A stretch of 64,000 nt of DNA, from NCBI GenBank assembly GCA_021792755.1, contig JAJYUA010000005.1, positions 62,001 to 126,000 on the forward strand, in the 5' to 3' direction. Position 1 is the stretch's first letter. Each line of letters opens with the position of its first letter. The notes under the pieces were generated by a model, which was not told the origin of the DNA, searched no databases, and worked only from the letters and a program-made list of their open reading frames with translations. The DNA comes from Pseudomonadota bacterium. GTDB lineage: Bacteria; Pseudomonadota; Gammaproteobacteria; Steroidobacterales; Steroidobacteraceae. Below are positions 6,773 to 19,182 of this stretch, one piece after another. A program made the translations under genes and the position numbers.

Positions 6773-6984
6773 CGGCAGACTGTACCGATGTACAGGCTTG
6801 TCGTAAAGCGACCGGAAGCCATCCCCCGCTCGACCAATGTACCGCCCGCGACTGGACGAGGAAGGCCGGCGCTGCCACTCTTACGGCCCCCTCAACGACC
6901 GGCCCCCCCCGCAACCGACCACGTCGACCTGCACGCTTGCGGCGCGATCGGCCAAGGGTCCCGAACCGTGAACAGCGGAGAGCA

Positions 6985-8097
6985 ATGAACAGCGAATCCC
7001 CTTCCCGGCCCATCCCGGCGCCGGACGCCGCAGCAGAAAGCGCCGCGCGCGCGCGCCAGTCCCAGCTCACCAAGCCCCCCGGCTCCCTTGGCCGGCTGGA
7101 GGAGCTCGCCTGCTGGCTCGCCGGCCGTCTGCGCCAGCCCGTCCCCGACATGCCTCGCTGCGAGGTCGTCGTGTTCGCAGGCGACCACGGCGTGGCCGCC
7201 CAGGGCGTCTCGGCGTTCCCCCAGGCGGTGACCGCTCAGATGGTCGCCAACTTCGCAGCCGGTGGCGCGGCCATCAATGTGCTCACCAAGCTCCATGAGT
7301 GCCGGATCGAGGTGGTGGATGTCGGTGTGGCCACCGACGCCGCGCCGCCCGCCGGCGTGCGCAACGAGCGGGTGCGGGCGGGAACCCGCGACCTGTCAGG
7401 CACGGCCGCCATGACGGCGGAGGAAACCCGCAAGGCGCTCGATGTGGGCGCGCAGTGCGCCCGCCGGGCGGTGGACCGGGGCGCACGCCTGTTGATCGCC
7501 GGGGACATGGGCATCGCCAACTCCACGGCCGCGGCGTGCCTGATCTGCGCGTTCACCGGCGGGGAGCCGGCGCACATCGTAGGACGCGGTACGGGAGTGG
7601 ACGACCCGGGCCTGAAGCACAAGGTGGCCGTGGTGCAGGCGGCGCTCGATCGAGTGGCCGCCTGCGGCGGCCGCTCGCTCGATGTGGCGCGGACATCGGC
7701 GGACGGCGAGCTGCGCTCGCAGGCCGCGTTCCGGATCCTGAGCGAGCTCGGCGGGCTCGAGATCGCGGCGATCGCCGGCTACTACCTGGAGGCGGCGCGC
7801 CTCGGCGTGCCGATGCTGGTGGACGGCTACATCTCCACTGCCGCGGCGCTCGCGGCCGTGCGCCTGGCGCCCGCGAGCCTGCAGTGGATGCAGGCGGGGC
7901 ACCGCTCGGCCGAGCCCGGCCACCGCGTGGCGCTCGAGGCGCTCGGCCTGGTGCCGCTGTTGGACCTCGACATGCGCCTCGGAGAAGGCACCGGCGCGAC
8001 GCTCGCGCTGCCCATCCTGCGCGCGGCGCTGGCGCTGCATCGCAACATGGCCACCTTCGCCGAAGCCGGGGTCTCGGAAAAATCCGCCCCCGCATGA
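6985..8097 (+). CDS. cobT: Nicotinate-nucleotide--dimethylbenzimidazole phosphoribosyltransferase CobT
   Basis: Makes alpha-ribazole 5'-phosphate from dimethylbenzimidazole and nicotinate mononucleotide for the cobalamin lower ligand. The 370-residue protein shows FAGDHGVAAQGVSAFPQAVT, AGDMGIANSTAAA, GRGTGVDD and the C-terminal RLGEGTGATLALP, which carries the catalytic glutamate of the family. The chosen ATG at 6985 has GGAG 4 bases upstream; an earlier in-frame start would only add an unconserved leader. Its stop overlaps the cobS ATG by 4 bp. I looked for a cobalamin riboswitch in the about 200 bp upstream and found none. No corrin-ring genes are nearby, so this may be a salvage and lower-ligand set. 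Confidence 0.96.
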   Translation: MNSESPSRPIPAPDAAAESAARARQSQLTKPPGSLGRLEELACWLAGRLRQPVPDMPRCEVVVFAGDHGVAAQGVSAFPQAVTAQMVANFAAGGAAINVLTKLHECRIEVVDVGVATDAAPPAGVRNERVRAGTRDLSGTAAMTAEETRKALDVGAQCARRAVDRGARLLIAGDMGIANSTAAACLICAFTGGEPAHIVGRGTGVDDPGLKHKVAVVQAALDRVAACGGRSLDVARTSADGELRSQAAFRILSELGGLEIAAIAGYYLEAARLGVPMLVDGYISTAAALAAVRLAPASLQWMQAGHRSAEPGHRVALEALGLVPLLDLDMRLGEGTGATLALPILRAALALHRNMATFAEAGVSEKSAPA

Positions 8098-8900
8098 GGC
8101 GCGCGGCCGGCACGCGCCTGCGGGGCCTAAGACTGGCCACCCAGTTCCTCACCCGCCTGCCGGTGCGGCGGCTCGAGGAGTACTCCCCGCTCGAGCTGTC
8201 GCGCTCGGCCCTGTGGTTTCCCGCCGTGGGGCTGGGTCTGGGGATCGTCACGCTGCTGCCGGCGGCCATCCCCGGACAGCAGCCGCTGTTGACCGCCGCG
8301 CTCGGCGTGCTGGCCTGGGCCTGGATGAGCGGTGCGTTGCACCTCGACGGGCTTGCGGATCTCACCGACGCGCTGGCCGCCTCCCATCGCGATCCGGATC
8401 GCTTCCTCGCCGTGCTGTCCGATCCGCATGCGGGCACTTTCGGCGTGGTGAGCGTCGTGCTGGTGCTGCTGCTGAAGACCGCCGCGCTCGGCTCCCTCGC
8501 CCGCCTGCCGCTGCTTCCGCTCCTGTTGGCGCCCCACGGGCTCATCGTCGATGTCGTTGCGCCCTCCGGAGCATCGCTGTGCGCCGTGGCGCTGGTCCCG
8601 GCCTGGGCGCGCCTGGGCCCGCTGCTCTGGAGGCGCTGGCTGCGGCCGCTCAAATCCGGTCAGGGCGAGCGCTTCGCGCAGCATCCGCTGCACGCCGGCT
8701 GGATCGTCGCATGGATGGCCGCGCTGCTGGCCGCCAGCGCGCTGCTCGCGCCGGTGCTGTGCGCGGCGCCGCTCGTGATTGCGGCCTGGGGCTACTGGCT
8801 GAAGCGGCGCGTCGGCGGCATGAGCGGGGATTGCCTGGGGGCCGGCATCGAGGTCTGCGAGACGGTGCTGATCATCGCGCTGGCGCTGGTGAGCGGCTGA
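8094..8900 (+). CDS. cobS: Adenosylcobinamide-GDP ribazoletransferase CobS
   Basis: Integral membrane enzyme joining adenosylcobinamide-GDP to alpha-ribazole (phosphate) to complete the nucleotide loop of cobalamin. The 268-residue product is close to the family norm. It has the signature SGALHLDGLADLTDAL near residue 80, several hydrophobic helices rich in Leu and Ala, and MSGDCLGAGIEVCE near the C-terminus, a conserved acidic motif of the family. The ATG at 8094 overlaps the cobT stop (ATGA). It converges with cobU, only 9 bp away, so the three nucleotide-loop genes are adjacent but on two transcripts. Confidence 0.95.
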   Translation: MRRAAGTRLRGLRLATQFLTRLPVRRLEEYSPLELSRSALWFPAVGLGLGIVTLLPAAIPGQQPLLTAALGVLAWAWMSGALHLDGLADLTDALAASHRDPDRFLAVLSDPHAGTFGVVSVVLVLLLKTAALGSLARLPLLPLLLAPHGLIVDVVAPSGASLCAVALVPAWARLGPLLWRRWLRPLKSGQGERFAQHPLHAGWIVAWMAALLAASALLAPVLCAAPLVIAAWGYWLKRRVGGMSGDCLGAGIEVCETVLIIALALVSG

Positions 8901-8909
8901 ATCCGCACC

Positions 8910-9458
8910 CTATTTCAGGCGCAGCGGCAGCCCCGCCGTCACGAGGAACACCTCGTCGCAGGCCGCCGCCACGGCCTGATTGAGCCAGCCCTGCTCGTCG
9001 CGGAACATCCGGGCCGCGGCACTGGCGGGCACGATGCCGCCGCCAACCTCGTTGCTGACCAGGATCGCGGGGCACGCGAGGCTCGAGAGCGCCTCGATGA
9101 ACGCGTCCCGCTCGCGCCGCCAGCGCTCGAGGTCGGCTGTCATCTCGCCCTGCGGTGCGCCCGAGACGCTTGCCGGGGACCACAGGCAGTTGGACAGCCA
9201 CAAAGTCAGGCAATCGACGAGCAGCACGCCCTGCGGGTCCGCCTCCTCCCGCAGCGCGCCTGCCAATGCAATCGGCGCCTCGCGCACACGCCAGTGGTCG
9301 GGACGCTCGCGCCGGTGCGCCTCGATGCGTGCGGCCATCTCCGCATCCGTCGCAGAGGCTGTCACGATGCAGCGGACATCCCCGCAGCACTCGGCCGCCT
9401 TGCGCGCGGCAAGTGTGCTCTTGCCGCTGCGGGCACCGCCGACGAACAAGACTTTCAT
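8910..9458 (-). CDS. cobU: Adenosylcobinamide kinase / adenosylcobinamide-phosphate guanylyltransferase CobU
   Basis: Phosphorylates adenosylcobinamide and then transfers GMP, giving the substrate of CobS. A P-loop is at the N-terminus, MKVLFVGGARSGKS, with GGARSGKS at residues 7-14; VDCLTLWLSNCLW and SNEVGGGIVP are further family motifs. EAHRRERPDHW carries the histidine expected to form the GMP adduct. I use ATG at 9458 (182 residues); an ATG 12 bp upstream is possible but has a Shine-Dalgarno-like GAAGG directly abutting it. The start is one base after the stop of the flavoprotein gene at 9460, so these two are probably co-transcribed. Confidence 0.94.
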   Translation of the reverse strand: MKVLFVGGARSGKSTLAARKAAECCGDVRCIVTASATDAEMAARIEAHRRERPDHWRVREAPIALAGALREEADPQGVLLVDCLTLWLSNCLWSPASVSGAPQGEMTADLERWRRERDAFIEALSSLACPAILVSNEVGGGIVPASAAARMFRDEQGWLNQAVAAACDEVFLVTAGLPLRLK

Positions 9459-9459
9459 G

Positions 9460-10680
9460 TCAGCACACATCCTTCAACGCGCTGCCCGGATCGGCCAGAC
9501 GGTCCGGATCGGGGCGCGCGCGCGCCGCGATGAGCCTGCGCGCGGCCATCTGGTCCTTGGGGGTATTGATGCTGTCGAGGGCGATCAGCTCGCCGGCGCG
9601 CAGATAGCAGGCGCTGAAGGCGCGCGAGGCCGGATCGCCCCGCAGCACGAGCGAGTCATACCCCTGGCCGATGCCGACGATGACGAGCTTCAGGTCGTAC
9701 TGGTCCGACCAGAACCAGGGCACCTTGTCGTGCGCCGTGGTCATCCCGAGCAGATTGAGCGCCGCGCTCGTGCCCTGCTCGAAGGCGTTGTCGACCGACT
9801 CCAGGCGCAGCCGCCGCCCGTAATGCGGGCTCGGATGGTTGGCGCAGTCCCCCGCGGCATAGATCGCCGGATCCGACGTGCGGCAGTACTCATCCACTAC
9901 CACGCCGTTGTCGCAGGCGAGTCCAGCCGCGGCAGCCAGCTCCGCGACCGGCAGCACGCCCACGCCGATGAGCACGATATCCGCCGGATGCTCGCCGCCG
10001 TCTTCTGTGAGCACCGCACGAACCCGGCCATCGTTTCGCGCGGCGAGCGCGCGAACCCGGATGTTGCGGAGAATGGATACGCCGTGACGGGCATGCTCGG
10101 CTTCGTAAAGCGCCGAGACCGCCGGGCAGGTCACGCGGCCCATGACCCGATCGGCCATCTCCAGCACCGTGACCGTCACGCCCAGGTGCCGAGCGGTGGC
10201 CGCGACCTCCAGGCCGACGTAGCCCCCACCCACGATGACCAGGCGCGCACCGGCCGACAGACCGGCGCGGATCCTGTCGGCGTCGGCGAGGGTCCGCAAG
10301 GCATGGACACCCTCCAGATTGGCCCCGGGCACCTCGAGCGGTCTAGGCCGGGCGCCCGTGGCGAGCAGCAGCGCGTCGTAAGCCAGTGTCGAGCCGTCAT
10401 CGAGGCGTACGCGCTGCTCGCGCCTGGAAATCTCCTCGACACGCCGGCCCGAGCGCACCTCGACCGAGTGCTGGCCGTAGAACTGTTGCGGTCGCAACAG
10501 CAAGCGCTCGCGCCCCGCCTCCCCGGCCAAGTACTTCTTCGAGAGCGGCGGACGCTGATACGGCAGCCATGGCTCATCCCCGACCACGGTGAGACTGCCC
10601 GTGAAGCCTCTGCGGCGCAGCGTGTCGATGGCCTGGACGGCGGCCTGGCCCGCGCCGACGATTACGATGTTCTCGAGCAT
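9460..10680 (-). CDS. FAD-dependent ferredoxin reductase-like oxidoreductase
   Basis: A 406-residue two-dinucleotide-fold flavoprotein. GAGQAAVQA at residues 9-17 is the FAD site, PPLSKKYL is typical of the putidaredoxin / rhodocoxin reductase group, LATGARPRPL follows, GGGYVG at 151-156 is the NAD(P)H site, and YAAGDCANHP with RLESVDNAFEQG closes the FAD fold. Such enzymes pass electrons from NAD(P)H to a [2Fe-2S] ferredoxin serving a P450 or dioxygenase. No ferredoxin, P450 or ring-hydroxylating oxygenase is nearby, so the partner is unknown. It runs into cobU with one base between stop and start, which may reflect transcription rather than shared function. Confidence 0.88.
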   Translation of the reverse strand: MLENIVIVGAGQAAVQAIDTLRRRGFTGSLTVVGDEPWLPYQRPPLSKKYLAGEAGRERLLLRPQQFYGQHSVEVRSGRRVEEISRREQRVRLDDGSTLAYDALLLATGARPRPLEVPGANLEGVHALRTLADADRIRAGLSAGARLVIVGGGYVGLEVAATARHLGVTVTVLEMADRVMGRVTCPAVSALYEAEHARHGVSILRNIRVRALAARNDGRVRAVLTEDGGEHPADIVLIGVGVLPVAELAAAAGLACDNGVVVDEYCRTSDPAIYAAGDCANHPSPHYGRRLRLESVDNAFEQGTSAALNLLGMTTAHDKVPWFWSDQYDLKLVIVGIGQGYDSLVLRGDPASRAFSACYLRAGELIALDSINTPKDQMAARRLIAARARPDPDRLADPGSALKDVC

Positions 10681-10776: not shown

Positions 10777-11287
<511 letters not shown>

Positions 11288-11291
11288 CTCG

Positions 11292-11340
11292 CCGGCGGCA
11301 GCCGCTTGCGGCGGTTGCCGCAGCCGGCCCGCCGGTTTTG
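11292..11340 (+). terminator. Candidate Rho-independent terminator after glnK
   Basis: Arms CCGGCGG (11292-11298) and CCGCCGG (11329-11335) pair perfectly, enclose an inner GCCGC/GCGGC hairpin, and are followed by TTTTG. It begins 5 bases after the glnK stop. The short T run makes it a moderate call. Confidence 0.55.
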
Positions 11341-11536
11341 TCGGACAATCGATCATGCCTCACCGCGTGCGCCGGCCGGGTGCGCGGCGCACGCGCGCTT
11401 GCGGCAGCCCAGCCGGCTGGCTCATCCGGACCCGCGAGTCCGAAGCGAATCCCGATCGTTTCCCCGCGGCACGCTCACGCTCGTCCTGGCGGATCCGCGG
11501 GGCCCCGGCCGGGCGGCGGGTTCCCCGCTCGGTGCT

Positions 11537-12037
11537 CTATCGCACCACGCGCATTGGGCGCGCATTGCGGCCCATGCCGAGCGCGCCGCTGCGCACCACC
11601 TCGAGAAGCTCCGCGCTCCGGGCGAGATCGACCGTGAAGGTATTGATCTCCGCCTCGCTCGCGGTCAGCTCGACGATGAACCCGTCCGCGGCCGGATCGA
11701 GCACCCGGCCGCCGGTGCGCACGACGTAGCCGCGGACTGCGTCCGTCTGTTCGGGCCGGACCTTGAGCTTGAGTAAGACCAGCTCGCGCTCGAGATGCTC
11801 TCCCGTGGTCATGTCCTCGACCTTGACCACGTCTACCAGCTTGTTCAGCTGATTGACGATCTGAGGGATCACCGCATCCGACCCCTTGGTGACCAAAGTC
11901 AATCGGGAGACGGTCGGGTCGTCCGTGGGCGCCACCGAGAGCGACTCGATGTTGTAGCCGCGGGTGGAAAACATTCCCGCGACTCGGCTCAGGGCGCCGG
12001 CTTCGTTCTGCAGCAGAATGGCGATGATGTGACGCAT
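11537..12037 (-). CDS. ilvH: Acetolactate synthase small (regulatory) subunit IlvH/IlvN
   Basis: Regulatory subunit of acetohydroxyacid synthase; it confers valine feedback and stimulates the large subunit. The 166 residues open MRHIIAILLQNEAGALSRVAGMF, an ACT domain with the glycine-rich GYNIESLSVAPT turn, followed by the second ferredoxin-like domain ending TVDLARSAELLEVVRSGALG. The ATG at 12037 matches the family start; the open frame continues 32 codons upstream without family resemblance. In most bacteria this gene directly follows ilvB/ilvI on the same strand. Here it is divergent from the large-subunit gene across a shared 259-bp region. Confidence 0.96.
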   Translation of the reverse strand: MRHIIAILLQNEAGALSRVAGMFSTRGYNIESLSVAPTDDPTVSRLTLVTKGSDAVIPQIVNQLNKLVDVVKVEDMTTGEHLERELVLLKLKVRPEQTDAVRGYVVRTGGRVLDPAADGFIVELTASEAEINTFTVDLARSAELLEVVRSGALGMGRNARPMRVVR

Positions 12038-12296
12038 GACCCTTTGGGATTTGAAATACTGGCGAAAGCCTGCAGAGAATAAAGGAAAGAGACGCGCGGC
12101 GGCCATCGGTGTAAGGCCGTGGACTCGATTCACCGCCAGTGCCGGCCGCGGACGCCCGCCCGAGAGCCTCGGCCGGCGGCCCCTACAGAGCCTGCGCGTG
12201 AGCGCGCGTTCACGTTGCCCCGGTAATCGCCCACTGCTAGTCTCGGGCCGATCTCCCCGTTCGGATGCTTGCCACCGCTATCATGAGTGCGCCTCC
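12038..12296. promoter_or_regulatory. Divergent ilvH-ilvB control region
   Basis: 259 bp separates the two starts and must hold both promoters. A possible ilvB-side pair is TTGCCC and TAGTCT with an 18-bp spacer about 70-90 bases before the ATG; it is weak. I found no leader peptide rich in Ile/Leu/Val codons, no T-box and no clear terminator/antiterminator pair, so classical ilv attenuation is not supported. Confidence 0.35.
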
Positions 12297-14144
12297 ATGA
12301 CCGACACTGCCCCACAGCCCCGCCGCGAGGGGCATCCGCTCGCCGGCCAAAAAATGTCCGGTGCGCGGATGATCATGCAACTGCTGGCGGACGAAGGGGT
12401 GGAGGCCATCTTCGGCTACAGCGGCGGCGCCATCCTGCCCACCTATGACGCCGTGTTCCTCTACAACGAGGAGCAGTCACGGGTCGGCGGCAGGCAGATC
12501 CCGCTCATCGTGCCGGCCAACGAGCAGGGCGCGGCCTTCATGGCAGCCGGTTTCGCGCGCGCGACGGGCCGTGTGGGGGTCTGCCTCGTCACCTCCGGTC
12601 CCGGCGCCACGAACACTGTCACACCCGTCCGCGACAGCATGGCCGATTCGGTGCCCATCGTGGTCATTTGCGGCCAGGTGGCGCGCGCTTCGATCGGCAC
12701 CGACGCCTTCCAGGAGGCTCCGGTCACCGCCATCATGGGCTCGGTCGCCAAGCACGTCTTTCTCGTGACCGAGCCCCAGCGGCTCGAGGCCACGATGCGC
12801 ACCGCGTTCGAGCTGGCCCGGACCGGCCGTCCGGGGCCGGTGGTGATCGATGTGCCCAAGGACGTCCAGAACTGGGAAGGCATTTTCCAGGGCGGCGGCA
12901 CGCTGCCCATTCCCGGCTACCGCCGTCGCATGAGGGAGCTCGCCGAGCATGTGCTCGATGAACGCGAGGCGGCGCGGTTCTTCGAGATGCTGGGCGAGTC
13001 GCGCCGGCCGCTGATCTACGCCGGTGGAGGCGTCGTCCACGGCGGGGCCGCCACGCAGCTCACCGAGTTCGCCGCCACGTTCGACATCCCCGTGGTGACC
13101 ACGCTCATGGGCATCGGAGCGATCGACACCACCCACCGCCTCTCGATGCGCATGCTCGGCATGCATGGGACGGCTTTCGCCAACTACGCCGTGGACGATT
13201 GCGACTTCCTCATCACTGTCGGTGCCCGGTTCGACGACCGGGTGGCCGGCGTGCCCGCCAAGTTCGCGCGCGGCGCCGAACGGATCGCTCAGTTGGACAT
13301 CGACCGCGCCGAGATCAACAAGGTCAAGCGCGTGCAGTGGAGCCACGTGGGGGTGCTGCCCGAGGCACTGCACACGCTCACCGCATACGGGCGGCGCAGC
13401 GGCTTTCGGCAGGATCTCGGCCAGTGGCACCAGGCGCTCGCCGAGCTCAAGCGCCGCCACGCCATGGGCTACGACCGCGAGAGCCCTCTCATTCAGCCGT
13501 ACTACGTGATCGAGGAAATCAACAAGCTCACCCGCGGCGAAGCGATCATCTCCACCGGCGTCGGCCAGCATCAGATGTGGACGGCCCAGTACTGTGATTT
13601 CCGCCGGCCGCGCCTGTGGCTGACCTCCGGTAGCATGGGCACCATGGGCTTCGGCCTGCCCGCGGCGATCGGCGCACAGCTCGCGCACCCGGGCACACTG
13701 GTGGTGGACATCGACGGGGACTCCAGCATCCGCATGAACCTCGGCGAGCTCGAGACCGTCACCACCTACGACCTGCCGATCAAGATCGTGGTGCTCAACA
13801 ACTTCGGCGACGGCATGGTCAAGCAGTGGCAGAAGCTGTTCTTCAAGGGACGGCTCTCGGCCAGCGATCGCTCGCTGCACAAGAAGGACTTCATCAAGGC
13901 TGCCCAGGCCGACGGCTTCCCGTACGCGGTGCGCCTGGACCGAAAGGAGGACGTGCCGCGGGTGGTGGCGGAATTCCTCGGCTCCCCGGGGCCCGCCTTC
14001 CTCGAGGTGATGATAGACCCCGACGCGGGCGTGTACCCCATGGTCGGGCCGGGCCAGACCTACGAGGAGATGATCACGGGGGATTTCATTGCCTCGCGCA
14101 CCAAGGTGGACATCAAGCCGCCGGGGCCCTCGGAAATGTTCTAG
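12297..14144 (+). CDS. ilvB: Acetolactate synthase large (catalytic) subunit
   Basis: Thiamine-diphosphate enzyme making 2-acetolactate or 2-aceto-2-hydroxybutyrate, the first common step to valine, leucine and isoleucine. The 615 residues contain the ThDP-activating glutamate at Glu76 in IVPANEQGAAFMA, LVTSGPGATNTVTPVRD, GARFDDRVAG, and the ThDP/Mg motif beginning DIDGDSSIRMN and ending VVLNN. The usual GDGS is GDSS here, and the segment after the motif reads FGDGMVKQWQKLFFKGRLSAS; this looks like a subfamily trait rather than damage. Start is ATG at 12297 without a strong Shine-Dalgarno. The glyoxalase gene follows 21 bp later. The small subunit is divergent at 12037. Confidence 0.95.
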   Translation: MTDTAPQPRREGHPLAGQKMSGARMIMQLLADEGVEAIFGYSGGAILPTYDAVFLYNEEQSRVGGRQIPLIVPANEQGAAFMAAGFARATGRVGVCLVTSGPGATNTVTPVRDSMADSVPIVVICGQVARASIGTDAFQEAPVTAIMGSVAKHVFLVTEPQRLEATMRTAFELARTGRPGPVVIDVPKDVQNWEGIFQGGGTLPIPGYRRRMRELAEHVLDEREAARFFEMLGESRRPLIYAGGGVVHGGAATQLTEFAATFDIPVVTTLMGIGAIDTTHRLSMRMLGMHGTAFANYAVDDCDFLITVGARFDDRVAGVPAKFARGAERIAQLDIDRAEINKVKRVQWSHVGVLPEALHTLTAYGRRSGFRQDLGQWHQALAELKRRHAMGYDRESPLIQPYYVIEEINKLTRGEAIISTGVGQHQMWTAQYCDFRRPRLWLTSGSMGTMGFGLPAAIGAQLAHPGTLVVDIDGDSSIRMNLGELETVTTYDLPIKIVVLNNFGDGMVKQWQKLFFKGRLSASDRSLHKKDFIKAAQADGFPYAVRLDRKEDVPRVVAEFLGSPGPAFLEVMIDPDAGVYPMVGPGQTYEEMITGDFIASRTKVDIKPPGPSEMF

Positions 14145-14165: not shown

Positions 14166-14585
14166 GTGAAATATCTGCATACCATGGTTCGAGTGACCGA
14201 CCTTGCGGCCTCGCTGCGCTTCTACTGCGATGCGCTCGGCCTGAGGGAGCTCTCGCGCAAGGACCATCCCCAGGGCCGCTACACGCTGGTGTTCCTGGCC
14301 GCCCCCGGCGACGATTCGGCGCAGGTGGAGCTCACCTACAACTGGGAGCGGGAAAATTACACGGGAGGACGCAATTTCGGCCATCTCGCCTATGCGGTCG
14401 ATGACCTCTACGCCACCTGCCGGCGCCTGCAAGACCACGGCGTCGTGATCAACCGGCCGCCGCGCGACGGCCACATGGCCTTCGTGCGCTCCCCCGATGC
14501 GATCTCGATCGAGCTGCTGCAGCGGGGCGAGCCTCTGCCGCCGGCCGAGCCGTGGAAATCGATGCCGAACGTCGGCAGCTGGTAG
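14166..14585 (+). CDS. gloA: Lactoylglutathione lyase (glyoxalase I)
   Basis: Isomerises the methylglyoxal-glutathione hemithioacetal to S-lactoylglutathione. It is a 139-residue single-chain VOC protein with metal ligands visible at expected places: His5 ([10 protein letters not shown]), Glu55 (QVELTYNW), His73 ([11 protein letters not shown]) and Glu115 (SIELLQRG). The start codon is GTG, fixed by a perfect AGGAGG ending 8 bases upstream. It probably shares the ilvB transcript. The glyoxalase II gene gloB lies about 14 kb away at 28643, so the full glutathione-dependent detoxification pair is in the window. Confidence 0.93.
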
Positions 14586-14616: not shown

Positions 14617-15078
14617 ATGCCGACCGAGAGCCCCGAAGCGCTGATCGAGCGCTACCTGCACGAGCAGATTCCGCTCTCCGCGGCCATGGGCGTCCGCGTT
14701 GCGCACGCGGCGCCCGACTGTGTCCGCCTCACCGCGCCCCTCGCTGCGAACATCAACCACAACGAGACGGTGTTTGGCGGCAGCGCCGCATCGGTGGCCA
14801 CACTGGCGGCCTGGGCTTTGTTGCACCTTCGGCTCACGGGCGGGGGGCTGCGCGCGCGCGTGGTCATCCAGCACAGCCGCATGGCCTACCAGCGGCCCAT
14901 CCCGGGGGACTTCGAGGCCCGCTGCCACTTCGCCGACGCGGCCGGCTGGGAGCGCTTCCTCACGACGCTCGCCCGCCGCGGCCGGGCCCGCATCACGTTG
15001 ACCGCGGAGCTCCTGTATCGGGAAGAACGAATGAGCGCATTCGAAGGCAAGTTCGTGGCGATCGCCCCTGTTGGTTGA
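14617..15078 (+). CDS. YiiD C-terminal-type hotdog thioesterase
   Basis: A 153-residue protein with the hotdog-fold pattern of the YiiD C-terminal family: PLSAAMGVRVAHAAPDCVRL, then INHNETVFGGSAASVATLAAW with the acidic/Asn region where hotdog thioesterases bind substrate, then VVIQHSRMAYQRPIPGDFEAR. The family is annotated as putative thioesterase; substrate is unknown. Start is ATG at 14617, 31 bp after gloA. Being alone rather than fused to an acetyltransferase domain, as in YiiD itself, is common outside enterics. Confidence 0.8.
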   Translation: MPTESPEALIERYLHEQIPLSAAMGVRVAHAAPDCVRLTAPLAANINHNETVFGGSAASVATLAAWALLHLRLTGGGLRARVVIQHSRMAYQRPIPGDFEARCHFADAAGWERFLTTLARRGRARITLTAELLYREERMSAFEGKFVAIAPVG

Positions 15079-15236
15079 CGGTCTGCCGGCGGCTCCCGGC
15101 GGGTGGTCGGCCCATCGCGTGCGTGCGGGGCTTGCTGTTCACATGGCGGACGGCGCAGAATGCACGCCGTTGGAATCGCCCGATTCCAAGTCCGGTCCGC
15201 ATCAGCCCAGCAACCCGAGCACGGGGGAAACTCGCC

Positions 15237-16421
15237 ATGAGTAACGCCGAGATTCGAGGCCTGTTCGTCTGGCACGAGTTGATGACGACCGACCCGCAGA
15301 GCGCGGCCACGTTCTACACCGGGGTGTTCCGGTGGAGCGTGCAGTCCTCGGGCGTGCCCGGCTACACGCTTTGGATGAGCGGGGAAACCGGGGTAAGCGG
15401 GTTGATGGCCCAGCCCGAGGAGGCCCGCCTGTGCGGCACGCCCCCGAGCTGGCTCGTCTATCTGGGCACGGCTGACGTCGATGCCACAGTGCACGCCGCC
15501 CAACGCCTCGGGGGCAAGGTGCTCAAAGATCCGGCCGATATCCCCTCCATCGGCCGGTTCGCCGTGCTCGCAGACCCTCAGGGCGCGGTGTTCGCGGTCT
15601 TTACCCCCGCCGTGCCGGCACCCGAGGATGCGGCCACCTCTAGGGTGATCTCGCAGTTCTCCTGGCACGAGCTCGCCACCTCGGACCCCCAGGGCGCGCT
15701 CGATTTCTATTCCTCGTTGTTCGGCTGGGGCCAGGGTGCGGGCCATGACATGGGCGGCGGCAACGTCTACCACATCATCGAGCGCGAAGACGCGAAGATC
15801 GGGGGCATCTACCGGCTGCAGGATCCTTCCCGGCCGCCGCATTGGCTGGCCTATGTGAAAGTCGACGACCTCGACGGCACGGTGGCCGCCGCTCGGGCCG
15901 CAGGCGGCCAGATCGTCCACGAGCCGCACGAGGTGCCCGGCGGCGATCGGGTCGCCCGGATCCTCGATCCGCAGGGAGGCGTCATTGCGGTGCATGAGGT
16001 ACGCCAGGCGATCGGCACGCCGGCGCGCAAGCCCCGGCGGCCGGTCCGCAAGGCTGCCCGCCAGTCCCCGGCCCGCCAGTCCCCGGCCCGCCAGCCTTCG
16101 CAACGGCCCACCGCAAAGCGCCCGTCCGTCCGTGCCGCCGGATCCAGGGCCGCTCCCCGCCGTTCCAAGCCCAAGGTAAAATCCGCCAGCGCCGAGGCTC
16201 CGGCGCGAAAAAGCGCACCCAGGCGCTCGACTGCCCAGGCTCCCGCACGAAAAGGCGGACCCAGGCGCTCGAGCGCCCAGGCCCCCCCGGCGCGAAAAAG
16301 TGCACCCAGGCGCTCGAGCGCCCAGGCCCCGGCGCGAAAAAGCGTCAGACCGAAGCACGCGGTGAGAGCAGGCTCGCTCGGGAAAGCCACCCGTAAGCGC
16401 CAGGCGGCCCGGCGACGCTAG
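15237..16421 (+). CDS. Tandem VOC-domain protein with histone-H1-like basic tail
   Basis: A 394-residue protein in two parts. Residues about 5-125 and 132-258 are two VOC (glyoxalase/bleomycin-resistance fold) modules that resemble each other: each has WHELMTTDPQSA or WHELATSDPQGA, then FYTGVFRW or FYSSLFGW, and ends in LADPQGAVFAVF or ILDPQGGVIAVHE. Residues about 262-394 form a tail almost free of acidic residues and made of Ala, Lys, Arg, Pro and Ser. The tail includes RQSPA repeats and three copies of a 14-residue unit such as ARKSAPRRSTAQAP. Such tails are known from bacterial H1-like and AlgP-like DNA-binding proteins; joined to VOC modules it is unusual. ATG at 15237. No partner gene is evident. 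Confidence 0.82.
   Translation: MSNAEIRGLFVWHELMTTDPQSAATFYTGVFRWSVQSSGVPGYTLWMSGETGVSGLMAQPEEARLCGTPPSWLVYLGTADVDATVHAAQRLGGKVLKDPADIPSIGRFAVLADPQGAVFAVFTPAVPAPEDAATSRVISQFSWHELATSDPQGALDFYSSLFGWGQGAGHDMGGGNVYHIIEREDAKIGGIYRLQDPSRPPHWLAYVKVDDLDGTVAAARAAGGQIVHEPHEVPGGDRVARILDPQGGVIAVHEVRQAIGTPARKPRRPVRKAARQSPARQSPARQPSQRPTAKRPSVRAAGSRAAPRRSKPKVKSASAEAPARKSAPRRSTAQAPARKGGPRRSSAQAPPARKSAPRRSSAQAPARKSVRPKHAVRAGSLGKATRKRQAARRR
16204..16350 (+). repeat. 42-bp tandem repeat encoding the basic tail
   Basis: Three and a half copies of a 42-bp unit start at 16204, 16246, 16291 and 16333. The second carries three extra bases, so the frame is kept. Each begins GCGCGAAAAAG or a close variant and contains ACCCAGGCGCTCGA. 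A shorter 15-bp repeat (CGCCAGTCCCCGGCC) lies just upstream near 16058-16095. Repeats this similar can change copy number by slippage. Confidence 0.85.
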
Positions 16422-16600: not shown

Positions 16601-16928
16601 TCAGGGCGGAGAATGCCCGGGATAAGGGACGAGTACAGAGCGTCCGTCGCTGACGCAGATCTCGCGCAGGCCGCAGTCGAGCACGACGGACGGCCCGATG
16701 GTGAATACGTCATTGCGTGATTCGATGACTTCGTAGACGCCCGGCGCCGGCACCACCTCGCCCGGGTCTGGCCGCGCCGGCAACCAGGGCGCTGAGAGTG
16801 TCCGCAGCCCGCCCGCGAGCGCGGCAGAGGATGCCGCCGCGGGTGAGGTGCGCGGCTTCGGCCGGCACGACCTCGAGCTCGCGGGGCATCGTGGGAGCGC
16901 GCTTGAACCTGACTTCCAAGTTGCGCAT
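16601..16928 (-). pseudogene. Small protein gene apparently broken by one frameshift
   Basis: On the reverse strand ATG at 16928 has a good Shine-Dalgarno (GGAG, 8 bases upstream) and begins MRNLEVRFKRAPTMPRELEV, with coding-like G/C third positions. Past roughly residue 45 that frame degrades to a Gly/Arg-rich end at 16710. The neighbouring frame continues with protein-like sequence, EVVPAPGVYEVIESRNDVF then VVLDCGLREICVSDGRSVL, to a stop at 16601. Joined by one shift near 16780-16800 they give a product of about 108 residues. I do not recognise the family. A sequencing error, a genuine pseudogene or programmed frameshifting cannot be separated here. Confidence 0.45.
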
Positions 16929-17012
16929 GGAGGGAGCTCCTGCGGCCCGGTTTTCGCGGCTTTCACAAATAGCTTAAACCTGACTCGTCTCTGCGGCACA
17001 ATGCGCCAATCC

Positions 17013-17657
17013 ATGGCAAAGCGATCCCAAACTCCTGTACAAACAGCCGCCCCGGCGCGTGTCCGGCGCAGCTATTTCGAGTGCCTGTACGGCCAGTTGC
17101 ACGTCCATCACGCGATCCCCGCCGGAGGCGGTTTCGAAGAAGGCACCCCCCTGCTGGCGCTGCACGCCGCGGCACAGACCGGCCGCATGTTCGGGGGCAT
17201 TCTGGCGGTGCTGGGCGCCGACCGCTCCGCATTCGCGCCCGATCTGCCGGGTTTCGGGCAATCGGACGGACCGTGGGAAGCGCTCACCGTCGCCGATCAT
17301 GCGGCGGCCATCGGGGATTTCCTCGACGCCATGCGTCTGCGGCAGGTGGATGTCCTCGGCTGCGGCCTCGGCGCCCTCGTGGCCGTCGAGCTCGCGGTCT
17401 CGCGGCCCGGTGTGCGGCGGGTCGTGGTGATGCCGCTGCCGCCGGAACCCGCGCAGCGGGATTATCCGCTCAGCGCGCAGATGGCCCGAATCGCTCAGCC
17501 CGCGCTGCTCCTGTATCCCCGGGAAATGCCGCAGGCGCTGCTCACGGCGGCGGGCCAGCTGCCGGCCCGCGCGCGGCGGGAGCTGCCCGGCGACCTGTCG
17601 CTGCTCGAGACCGCTCCCGAGACGGTCGTCGATGCGATCAAAGGCTTCCTCGACTGA
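17013..17657 (+). CDS. Alpha/beta-hydrolase-fold protein lacking the catalytic triad
   Basis: A 214-residue protein that follows the alpha/beta hydrolase pattern without its chemistry. The oxyanion strand reads TPLLALHAAAQTGRMF where HG is expected. The PDLPGFGQSDGP strand is normal. The nucleophile elbow is VLGCGLGALVAV, with glycine where Gly-x-Ser-x-Gly has serine. The acid strand is ALLLYPREMPQ without the usual Asp, and the final region LPGDLSLLETAPETV has no His. The lid between strands is almost absent, shortening the protein by some 50 residues. The frame is intact and codon use is normal, so it seems maintained as a non-enzyme. ATG at 17013 is preferred; ATG at 17001 is possible. It is 7 bp from ilvA. 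Confidence 0.75.
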   Translation: MAKRSQTPVQTAAPARVRRSYFECLYGQLHVHHAIPAGGGFEEGTPLLALHAAAQTGRMFGGILAVLGADRSAFAPDLPGFGQSDGPWEALTVADHAAAIGDFLDAMRLRQVDVLGCGLGALVAVELAVSRPGVRRVVVMPLPPEPAQRDYPLSAQMARIAQPALLLYPREMPQALLTAAGQLPARARRELPGDLSLLETAPETVVDAIKGFLD

Positions 17658-17664
17658 AGCGTTC

Positions 17665-19182
17665 ATGACCAGTCCCTACATCGAACAGATCCTCAAGGCG
17701 CGCGTGTACGAGGTCGCGGTCGAATCCCCCCTGGAGGAGGCCCCGCGCCTGTCGCGTCGTCTGGACAACCGCATCCTGCTGAAGCGCGAGGACCTCCAGC
17801 CGGTGTTCTCCTTCAAGCTGCGCGGCGCCTACAACCGCATCGCCCGCTTGTCCGACTCGGCGGCGCGGCGCGGCGTCGTATGCGCCTCGGCGGGCAATCA
17901 CGCCCAGGGTGTCGCGCTGGCTGCGCGCAAGCGCGGCATCACCGCCGTGGTCGTGATGCCGCAGACCACACCCCGGATCAAGCTCCAGGCGGTGATGGAC
18001 CTCGGCGGCGAGGTCGTGCTGCACGGCGATGACTACGATGCGGCGTGCGAGCACGCGCTGCAGCTGGCGCGGGAGCGCAACCTCGTGTTCGTCCATCCCT
18101 TCGACGATCCCGACGTGATCGCCGGTCAGGGCACCATCGCTGTGGAGCTGATCCGCCAGACCGGCGGCAATCTCGACGCCTTGTTCGTGCCCGTGGGCGG
18201 CGGCGGTCTCATCGCCGGCATCGCCGTCTACGTGAAATATCTCTACCCGTCCATCCGCATCATCGGCGTGGAGCCGGAGGATGCCGCCGGAATGTACGAG
18301 TCGCTCAAGGCCGGGCGGCGTGTGACGCTCGAGCGGGTCGGCATTTTCGCCGACGGCGTGGCCGTCAAGCGCGTCGGCGAGGAGACGTTCGAGCTGTGCC
18401 GCCGGCACGTCGATGAGATCGTGCTGCTCGACAACGATGAGATCTGCGCAGCCATCCAGGACGTGTTCGAGGATACCCGCTCCATCGTGGAGCCAGCCGG
18501 CGCATTGGCGGTGGCGGGCCTGAAGAAGGTCGTCGTCCGCGAGGGCTGGCGAGGCAAGCGCCTCGCCGCCATCACGAGCGGCGCGAACATCAACTTCGAC
18601 CGGCTGCGCCACGTGGCCGAGCGCGCCGATCTCGGCGGCGAGCGCGAAGCGCTGCTTGCGGTCACCATCCCGGAGCATCGGGGGAGCTTCCGGCACTTCT
18701 GCGAAGTCCTCGGCCGGCGCAGCATCACGGAATTCAACTACCGCTACGAAAGCGAAGCGGCGGCTCAGGTCTTCGTCAGCTTCGGCCTCGCCCACGGCAG
18801 GGAAGAGAAGGACAGCGTAGCGCTCGCCCTGCGTGCCGCAGGCTATTCGGTCACCGACATGAGCGACAACGAGATGGCGAAGCTCCACGTCCGCTACATG
18901 GTCGGCGGTCGCGCGCGCGGCATCCGCGACGAGCTGCTCTACCGGTTCGAGTTCCCCGAGCGGCCGGGGGCGCTGCTGAAATTCCTGGACGCGGTCGGCT
19001 CACGCTGGAACATCAGCCTGTTTCATTATCGCAACCAGGGCGCAGACTACGGCCGCGTGCTCGCCGGCATCCAGGTGCCGCCGGCGGAGCGCGCCGAGTT
19101 CCTGCAGCACCTGAACGATCTGCATTACGCCTTCGCGGAGGAGACCGGCAACCCGGCCTACCGGATGTTCCTGGGAGCTTAG
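17665..19182 (+). CDS. ilvA: Biosynthetic threonine ammonia-lyase IlvA
   Basis: PLP enzyme converting threonine to 2-oxobutyrate for isoleucine synthesis. The 505 residues have the long biosynthetic architecture. The catalytic domain carries the PLP lysine at about residue 51 in FSFKLRGAYNRI, SAGNHAQGVALAA, and the glycine loop VGGGGLIAGIA. Two ACT-like regulatory regions follow, one from about residue 330 (AVTIPEHRGSFRHFC) and one from about 425 (YRFEFPERPGALLKFLDAV). The tandem regulatory domains imply isoleucine feedback inhibition. ATG at 17665 is used; a few in-frame codons upstream overlap the previous gene. With ilvB and ilvH in the same 7 kb, the early isoleucine steps are clustered loosely. 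Confidence 0.96.
   Translation: MTSPYIEQILKARVYEVAVESPLEEAPRLSRRLDNRILLKREDLQPVFSFKLRGAYNRIARLSDSAARRGVVCASAGNHAQGVALAARKRGITAVVVMPQTTPRIKLQAVMDLGGEVVLHGDDYDAACEHALQLARERNLVFVHPFDDPDVIAGQGTIAVELIRQTGGNLDALFVPVGGGGLIAGIAVYVKYLYPSIRIIGVEPEDAAGMYESLKAGRRVTLERVGIFADGVAVKRVGEETFELCRRHVDEIVLLDNDEICAAIQDVFEDTRSIVEPAGALAVAGLKKVVVREGWRGKRLAAITSGANINFDRLRHVAERADLGGEREALLAVTIPEHRGSFRHFCEVLGRRSITEFNYRYESEAAAQVFVSFGLAHGREEKDSVALALRAAGYSVTDMSDNEMAKLHVRYMVGGRARGIRDELLYRFEFPERPGALLKFLDAVGSRWNISLFHYRNQGADYGRVLAGIQVPPAERAEFLQHLNDLHYAFAEETGNPAYRMFLGA

Follow-up and report, generated by a model that had tools for sequence, protein, structure and literature searches.

The locus at positions 15237 to 16421 of the window, the stretch of 64,000 nucleotides of DNA analysed here, raises two questions: whether a VOC protein genuinely carries a histone-H1-like tail, and what such a tail would do on a small-molecule fold. 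The open reading frame on the forward strand extends from an ATG to a stop codon at 16419-16421 and encodes a protein of 394 amino acids (P0001). A start at TTG 15075, which would lengthen the reading frame, was considered unlikely; a G-rich stretch precedes ATG 15237 by 7 bases. An upstream reading '(R)GKLAM' is common to the window and to relatives L002, L003, L015 and L016, so the stretch before the ATG looks conserved. The features of the gene are the following.

15223..15229, forward strand: putative ribosome-binding stretch GGGGGAA, 7 bases 5' of the ATG (from sequence)
15237..16421, forward strand: tailed VOC protein P0001 (open reading frame, Pfam, readings across relatives)
15258..15611, forward strand: VOC domain 1, residues 8-125 (Pfam, AlphaFold2, alignment)
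15651..16001, forward strand: VOC domain 2, residues 139-255 (Pfam, AlphaFold2, alignment)
16014..16418, forward strand: disordered polycationic H1-like tail of 135 residues, 260-394 (composition, AlphaFold2)
16056..16094, forward strand: direct repeat of 15 bp, 2.6 copies, coding for ARQSP
16188..16344, forward strand: tandem repeat of 42 bp or 14 residues, 3.7 copies, of APARKSAPRRSSAQ-type units

A preliminary description of this DNA had read the gene as two VOC modules followed by a basic tail with 14-residue tandem repeats and nearly no acidic residues, and each of these points was borne out. Pfam assigns two stretches each to PF00903 (70.9 bits, cut-off 20.6) and PF18029 (53.8 bits, cut-off 23.6), the repeat has a 42-bp period, and the 135 tail residues comprise 43 lysines and arginines and a single acidic residue, for a net charge of +42. 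The core (residues 1-259) has a net charge of -12 and a pI of 5.1, and the pI of the whole protein is 11.2. The comparison with histone H1 stood up, with one correction: the tail is disordered, basic and acid-poor, but arginine outnumbers lysine (lysine share of K+R, 0.30), making it less lysine-biased than histone H1 or the AlgP tail. Pfam's nearest H1-like family, the chlamydial HC2 family (PF07382), scored 11.3 bits, far below its cut-off of 40 (E 0.38). AlphaFold2 predicts the tail to be without secondary structure, at pLDDT of about 47-70, and its internal repetition was reached by none of 2000 residue shuffles. Near-perfect palindromes around GGCGCTCGAGCGCC lie inside the 42-bp repeats at window positions 16217-16327, and on the minus strand T-rich stretches follow these hairpins, which score as terminator-like; they probably arise as a side effect of the repeat in the coding sequence.

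The genome has a G+C content of about 69%, tandem repeats of this kind turn over, and dN/dS is higher in the tail than in the core, all of which would suit a tail that arose from high G+C and repeat slippage without a selected role, or from a frame error. In 20,000 base shuffles, the 13 lysines of the tail compare with a mean of 2.2 and a maximum of 10, the 43 lysines plus arginines with a mean of 24.9 and a maximum of 42, and the single acidic residue with a mean of 8.0. Because the shuffles never match the lysine or the combined count, and the enriched lysine codons are A-rich, high G+C offers no explanation, and G+C drift was ruled out. Acids are likewise nearly excluded from 49 readable tails. 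In every reading from the window's genome (G000) and 21 further genomes of the genus (usable loci L001-L022, with the readings of L014, L017 and L018 ending at a contig edge), the frame continues beyond the VOC core and enters an extension that is basic or poor in acids. Two other genomes of the genus gave no match and a third only a fragment (L025), in assemblies that are 62-84% complete. One locus, L020 (G016:C58), has an in-frame TAG near the N-terminus, reflecting an assembly error or a broken gene.

Substitution patterns argue in the same direction. Across eleven close pairs with usable dS, dN/dS was 0.14-0.61 in the tail versus 0.09-0.23 in the core, below 1 in every pair, and in twelve close pairs synonymous divergence in the tail was similar to or above that of the core, so that the tail is read as protein under a constraint looser than that on the core. 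In the window and the regions of 18 relatives, which together gave 281 gene calls, orthologues of this gene were the sole proteins with a C-terminal tail of this kind, which argues that the tail belongs to the VOC protein and rules out a locus-wide habit of H1-like tails. Genome-wide searches with the tail or with a synthetic KA-rich query returned the gene itself or nothing, an outcome of little weight since composition filters suppress such queries. A frame error or an untranslated repeat was ruled out by the open frames, dN/dS and shuffles, and an unselected by-product is very improbable. The preliminary description had named, as the case against it, tailless homologues in all relatives together with a frame error or an untranslated repeat region; what was found is that homologues in the clade are tailed, in frame and under purifying selection. 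The fusion is real and conserved across the clade.

Conservation of the tail does not extend to its letters. The 49 complete tails, which include some from genomes present twice, are 41-190 residues long and contain 30-55% lysine plus arginine and 0-9 acidic residues. Tail sequences turn over quickly, with APARKSAPRRSSAQ in the window, AAAGKRTAKRPATK in L002 and perfect APARK repeats in L014, and the tails of L016 and L141 are lysine-rich with a period of 4. Selection keeps composition, length class and disorder, not exact sequence. The L014 run (G011:C57, bases 1-363), an almost perfect series of some 20 APARK units, extends to the end of its contig, where the assembly probably broke within the repeat.

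The DNA comes from an uncultured gammaproteobacterium, and its named relatives are metagenome-assembled Gammaproteobacteria and 'Proteobacteria', one of them labelled Steroidobacteraceae. Tails are not confined to the genus: within the window's family two further genera carry them (L138, L142), as does another family of the same order (L141). They are also borne by Gammaproteobacteria palsa_1196 (L068), by a pair of Gemmatimonadota (L070, L079) and by one member of the Acidobacteriota (L088). Homologues from Rhizobiales, Myxococcota, most Gemmatimonadota and Acidobacteriota, and other families of the order are tailless, and every homologue contributed by a class-wide sweep of 369 genomes, limited to strong matches (E up to 1e-45), was tailless too. 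Genomes G005 and G010 each hold a tailed copy plus a distant tailless paralogue (L042:4932-5699 in G005:C162 and L043:5639-6397 in G010:C17, about 38% identical), and these second copies fall among homologues that lack a tail and are mostly alphaproteobacterial. In a tree built from the core alone, tail presence requires two changes; constraining all tailed rows together gave a higher likelihood (p-AU 0.69), so that the tailed sequences appear compatible with a single origin, which is not rejected.

Turning to the core, AlphaFold2, run on an alignment of 59 sequences, predicts two VOC domains formed by four beta-alpha-beta-beta-beta modules (residues 10-254), with most blocks at pLDDT 93-98. 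Foldseek matches are VOC proteins, with Rv0577 (3oxh, E 3.2e-25) and AbxF ranking first, and phmmer agrees. Rv0577 of Mycobacterium tuberculosis, a homologue of Streptomyces KbpA, has a similar two-domain core (32% identity over 257 aligned columns, TM 0.81 by target), but its solved chain stops at the VOC core, without a basic tail, and it lacks in the alignment the WHEL histidine that tailed proteins carry at the start of domain 1. The open-licence PMC papers listed for Rv0577 deal mainly with tuberculosis antigens and diagnostics. AbxF (PDB 8stb, 9jt3, 8eo9), a spiroketal-forming VOC enzyme of secondary metabolism, shares the two-domain fold at about 23-24% identity (TM 0.65-0.80 by target), and its solved chain is the VOC core alone.

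Tailed proteins are distinguished by His13, which lies in the motif F-[VI]-W-H-E-L and occurs in each of the 20 tailed proteins aligned, against tyrosine at this position in 34 of 39 tailless ones. Lys97, His170 and Glu254 are likewise enriched. His13 is also found in L072 and L074, untailed neighbours of the tailed clade, and since the tailed rows are related it is a clade signature, not independent evidence that tail and core are coupled. The W-H-E-L of domain 2 (His144, Glu145) is invariant in tailed proteins, and Glu254 is present in 16 of 20. In VOC enzymes, metal ligands lie on the first and last strands of the modules, and in the alignment His144 and Glu254 fit such positions in domain 2. 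Position 202 of that domain is variable and the last strand of domain 1 does not end in an acidic residue, so a classical glyoxalase I site is not evident from the sequence, the canonical set of metal ligands looks incomplete and catalysis is putative. Identification as glyoxalase I was rejected, NCBIfam giving no match to a glyoxalase I equivalog.

The top fold match, Rv0577, is titled a kinase inhibitor homologue, and the sole NCBIfam match is KbpA (NF053614, 89.8 bits). KbpA associates with AfsK and keeps it from autophosphorylating (PMC6988585), which raises the alternative of a regulator in which the tail sets the location and the VOC core engages another protein, for instance a Ser/Thr kinase. 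The score falls far under the KbpA cut-off of 250 and no kinase gene was identified among the annotated neighbours, so we regard such a role as quite improbable.

The neighbouring genes provide a lead on what the core might bind.

11537..12133, reverse strand: ilvN, acetolactate synthase small subunit, divergent from ilvB
12294..14144, forward strand: ilvB, biosynthetic acetolactate synthase large subunit (TIGR00118)
14166..14585, forward strand: gloA-like, a separate single-domain glyoxalase I-like gene, kept in relatives covering the locus
14617..15078, forward strand: YiiD_C-type thioesterase (PF09500), next upstream, kept in most relatives
16848..17657, forward strand: alpha/beta hydrolase, next downstream, conserved
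17632..19182, forward strand: ilvA, threonine dehydratase (TIGR01124), downstream, conserved

Nearly all relatives of the genus with enough flanking sequence keep the order ilvN, ilvB, gloA-like, tailed VOC, alpha/beta hydrolase and ilvA, often with the YiiD_C thioesterase between the gloA-like and tailed genes. Some relatives have 3.5-4 kb of other genes between gloA and the tailed gene, as in L035, whose insert comprises putative membrane glycosyltransferase and transporter-like genes (translations judged by eye). With branched-chain amino-acid genes and gloA adjoining the gene, the neighbourhood suggests a core ligand from 2-oxo-acid or aldehyde/carbonyl metabolism. The tailed homologues in Gemmatimonadota and Acidobacteriota are without the ilv-gloA block, which is therefore a lead, not proof, on function. 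The usual ilvBN order is broken in the window, where a P-II regulator, ilvN and ilvB lie together at 10826-14144; further upstream, at 6937-10680, cobalamin genes (PF02277 phosphoribosyltransferase, PF02283 CobU) sit beside a flavoprotein resembling pyridine-nucleotide-disulphide reductases.

The same neighbourhood could be read as that of a VOC enzyme that clears a reactive carbonyl, either methylglyoxal-like or of 2-oxo-acid origin, near DNA, complementing a cytosolic gloA product. The VOC fold, the conservation of the gloA-like neighbour with ilvB and ilvA, and a tail suited to DNA anchoring are consistent with this role. The four-ligand metal site of glyoxalase I is not evident, however, among characterised proteins the nearest relatives are a homologue of a kinase inhibitor and an enzyme that forms spiroketals, and the neighbourhood is only suggestive, given the relatives in which other genes separate gloA from the tailed gene. 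Carbonyl removal is, on these grounds, rather improbable.

The closest analogues of the tail are found on other kinds of protein. AlgP and PhaF of Pseudomonas likewise join an N-terminal part to a long, disordered, acid-poor basic tail (whole-protein net charges of +55 and +35; PMC9239181), and their K/A/P tails bind DNA and position polyphosphate or polyhydroxyalkanoate (PHA) granules on the nucleoid (PMC9239181; PMC13052382). In place of the VOC core they have a helical or phasin domain at the N-terminus, and their tails are dominated by lysine in KPAA repeats, whereas the window's is arginine-rich with 14-residue units. HupS, HupB and actinobacterial TopA also bear a basic C-terminal addition, with lysine repeats, on a folded protein. 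Lysine-repeat domains of the HupS/HupB type occur in DNA-binding proteins, and truncation of the HupB tail abolishes DNA affinity (PMC11229371); the TopA tail is reported to matter for processivity (PMC7398561). These proteins already bind DNA, whereas the VOC core is not a known DNA-binding fold. In Myxococcus xanthus, a basic stretch places the receptor FrzCD on the nucleoid (PMC12077210), although this stretch is short (30 residues), N-terminal and attached to a chemoreceptor, not to a VOC protein.

From charge, composition and these analogues, we infer that the tail binds DNA or polyphosphate. The reading towards which we lean, with moderate confidence, is that of an Rv0577/AbxF-like VOC protein, either ligand-binding or enzymatic, tethered by its tail most likely to DNA or else to polyphosphate. 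The disordered, polycationic C-terminal tail would tether the protein to an intracellular polyanion, most likely nucleoid DNA, to which it would bind electrostatically and non-specifically in the manner of AlgP, PhaF and HupB, with polyphosphate as a possible second partner. The acidic folded core would stay free for a ligand or partner, and a ligand-binding or catalytic activity would thereby be placed on the chromosome. The proposal of a nucleoid-associated sensor or DNA-tethered enzyme in the preliminary description fits these analogues (AlgP, PhaF, HupB and FrzCD), with composition as its ground. Two points count against a DNA tether: tails with this much positive charge are also able to bind RNA, ribosomes, membranes or the acidic core of the same protein, and the HC2 score lies far below its cut-off.

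Granules offer two other destinations. A polyphosphate kinase (PPK1) was found in 25 of 26 genomes of the genus, including the window's, so that polyphosphate stays possible as a second partner. It may instead be the main one, the tail chiefly binding polyphosphate granules or driving polyphosphate/RNA condensates in the manner of AlgP, with DNA secondary and the VOC protein stored or positioned in starvation. AlgP, whose tail is similar, is enriched at polyphosphate granules and requires that tail for granule spacing (PMC9239181), and an acidic core (-12) joined to a basic tail (+42) would suit charge-driven condensation. PPK1 is, however, common in bacteria, which makes its presence weak evidence; the conserved block holds no polyphosphate gene, and the AlgP tail binds DNA too. 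A chiefly polyphosphate-bound protein is, in our judgement, possible though unlikely. PhaF shares this type of tail with AlgP, which could point to a PHA-granule protein of the PhaF kind, but the core is VOC, not phasin. PHA synthase (PF07167) was not found in 19 of 26 genomes of the genus, including the window's, although several of these assemblies are incomplete, and most of the genomes without it carry the tailed VOC protein. This result disfavours a role on PHA granules, which is hardly credible.

The open-licence PMC literature yielded no account of a VOC protein bearing an H1-like tail, in keeping with the view of the preliminary description that the arrangement is without a described role. 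Taken singly, the two halves are of known kinds; in the literature searched, there appears to be no description of their combination, of its conservation in the clade or of its signature residues. The bacterial H1-like tails known so far belong either to DNA-binding proteins (HU, topoisomerase) or to granule proteins (PhaF, AlgP). Tethering as a principle would reach into metabolism if a small-molecule fold carried such a conserved tail together with a matching signature in its binding domain. The natural series of tails on one core, from 41 to 190 amino acids and from lysine-rich to arginine-rich, would help to ask which composition is sufficient for nucleoid or polyphosphate targeting. A more speculative extension of DNA or polyphosphate tethering, which we regard as doubtful, is a metabolite-responsive nucleoid-associated protein in which ligand binding in the VOC core alters the grip of the H1-like tail on DNA or polyphosphate, directly coupling branched-chain amino-acid or carbonyl metabolism to chromosome state. 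The tailed protein would offer a simple test of such metabolite-to-nucleoid coupling, which, if true, would amount to chromosome control without a sequence-specific transcription factor in a Steroidobacteraceae-like clade and a few Gemmatimonadota and Acidobacteriota.
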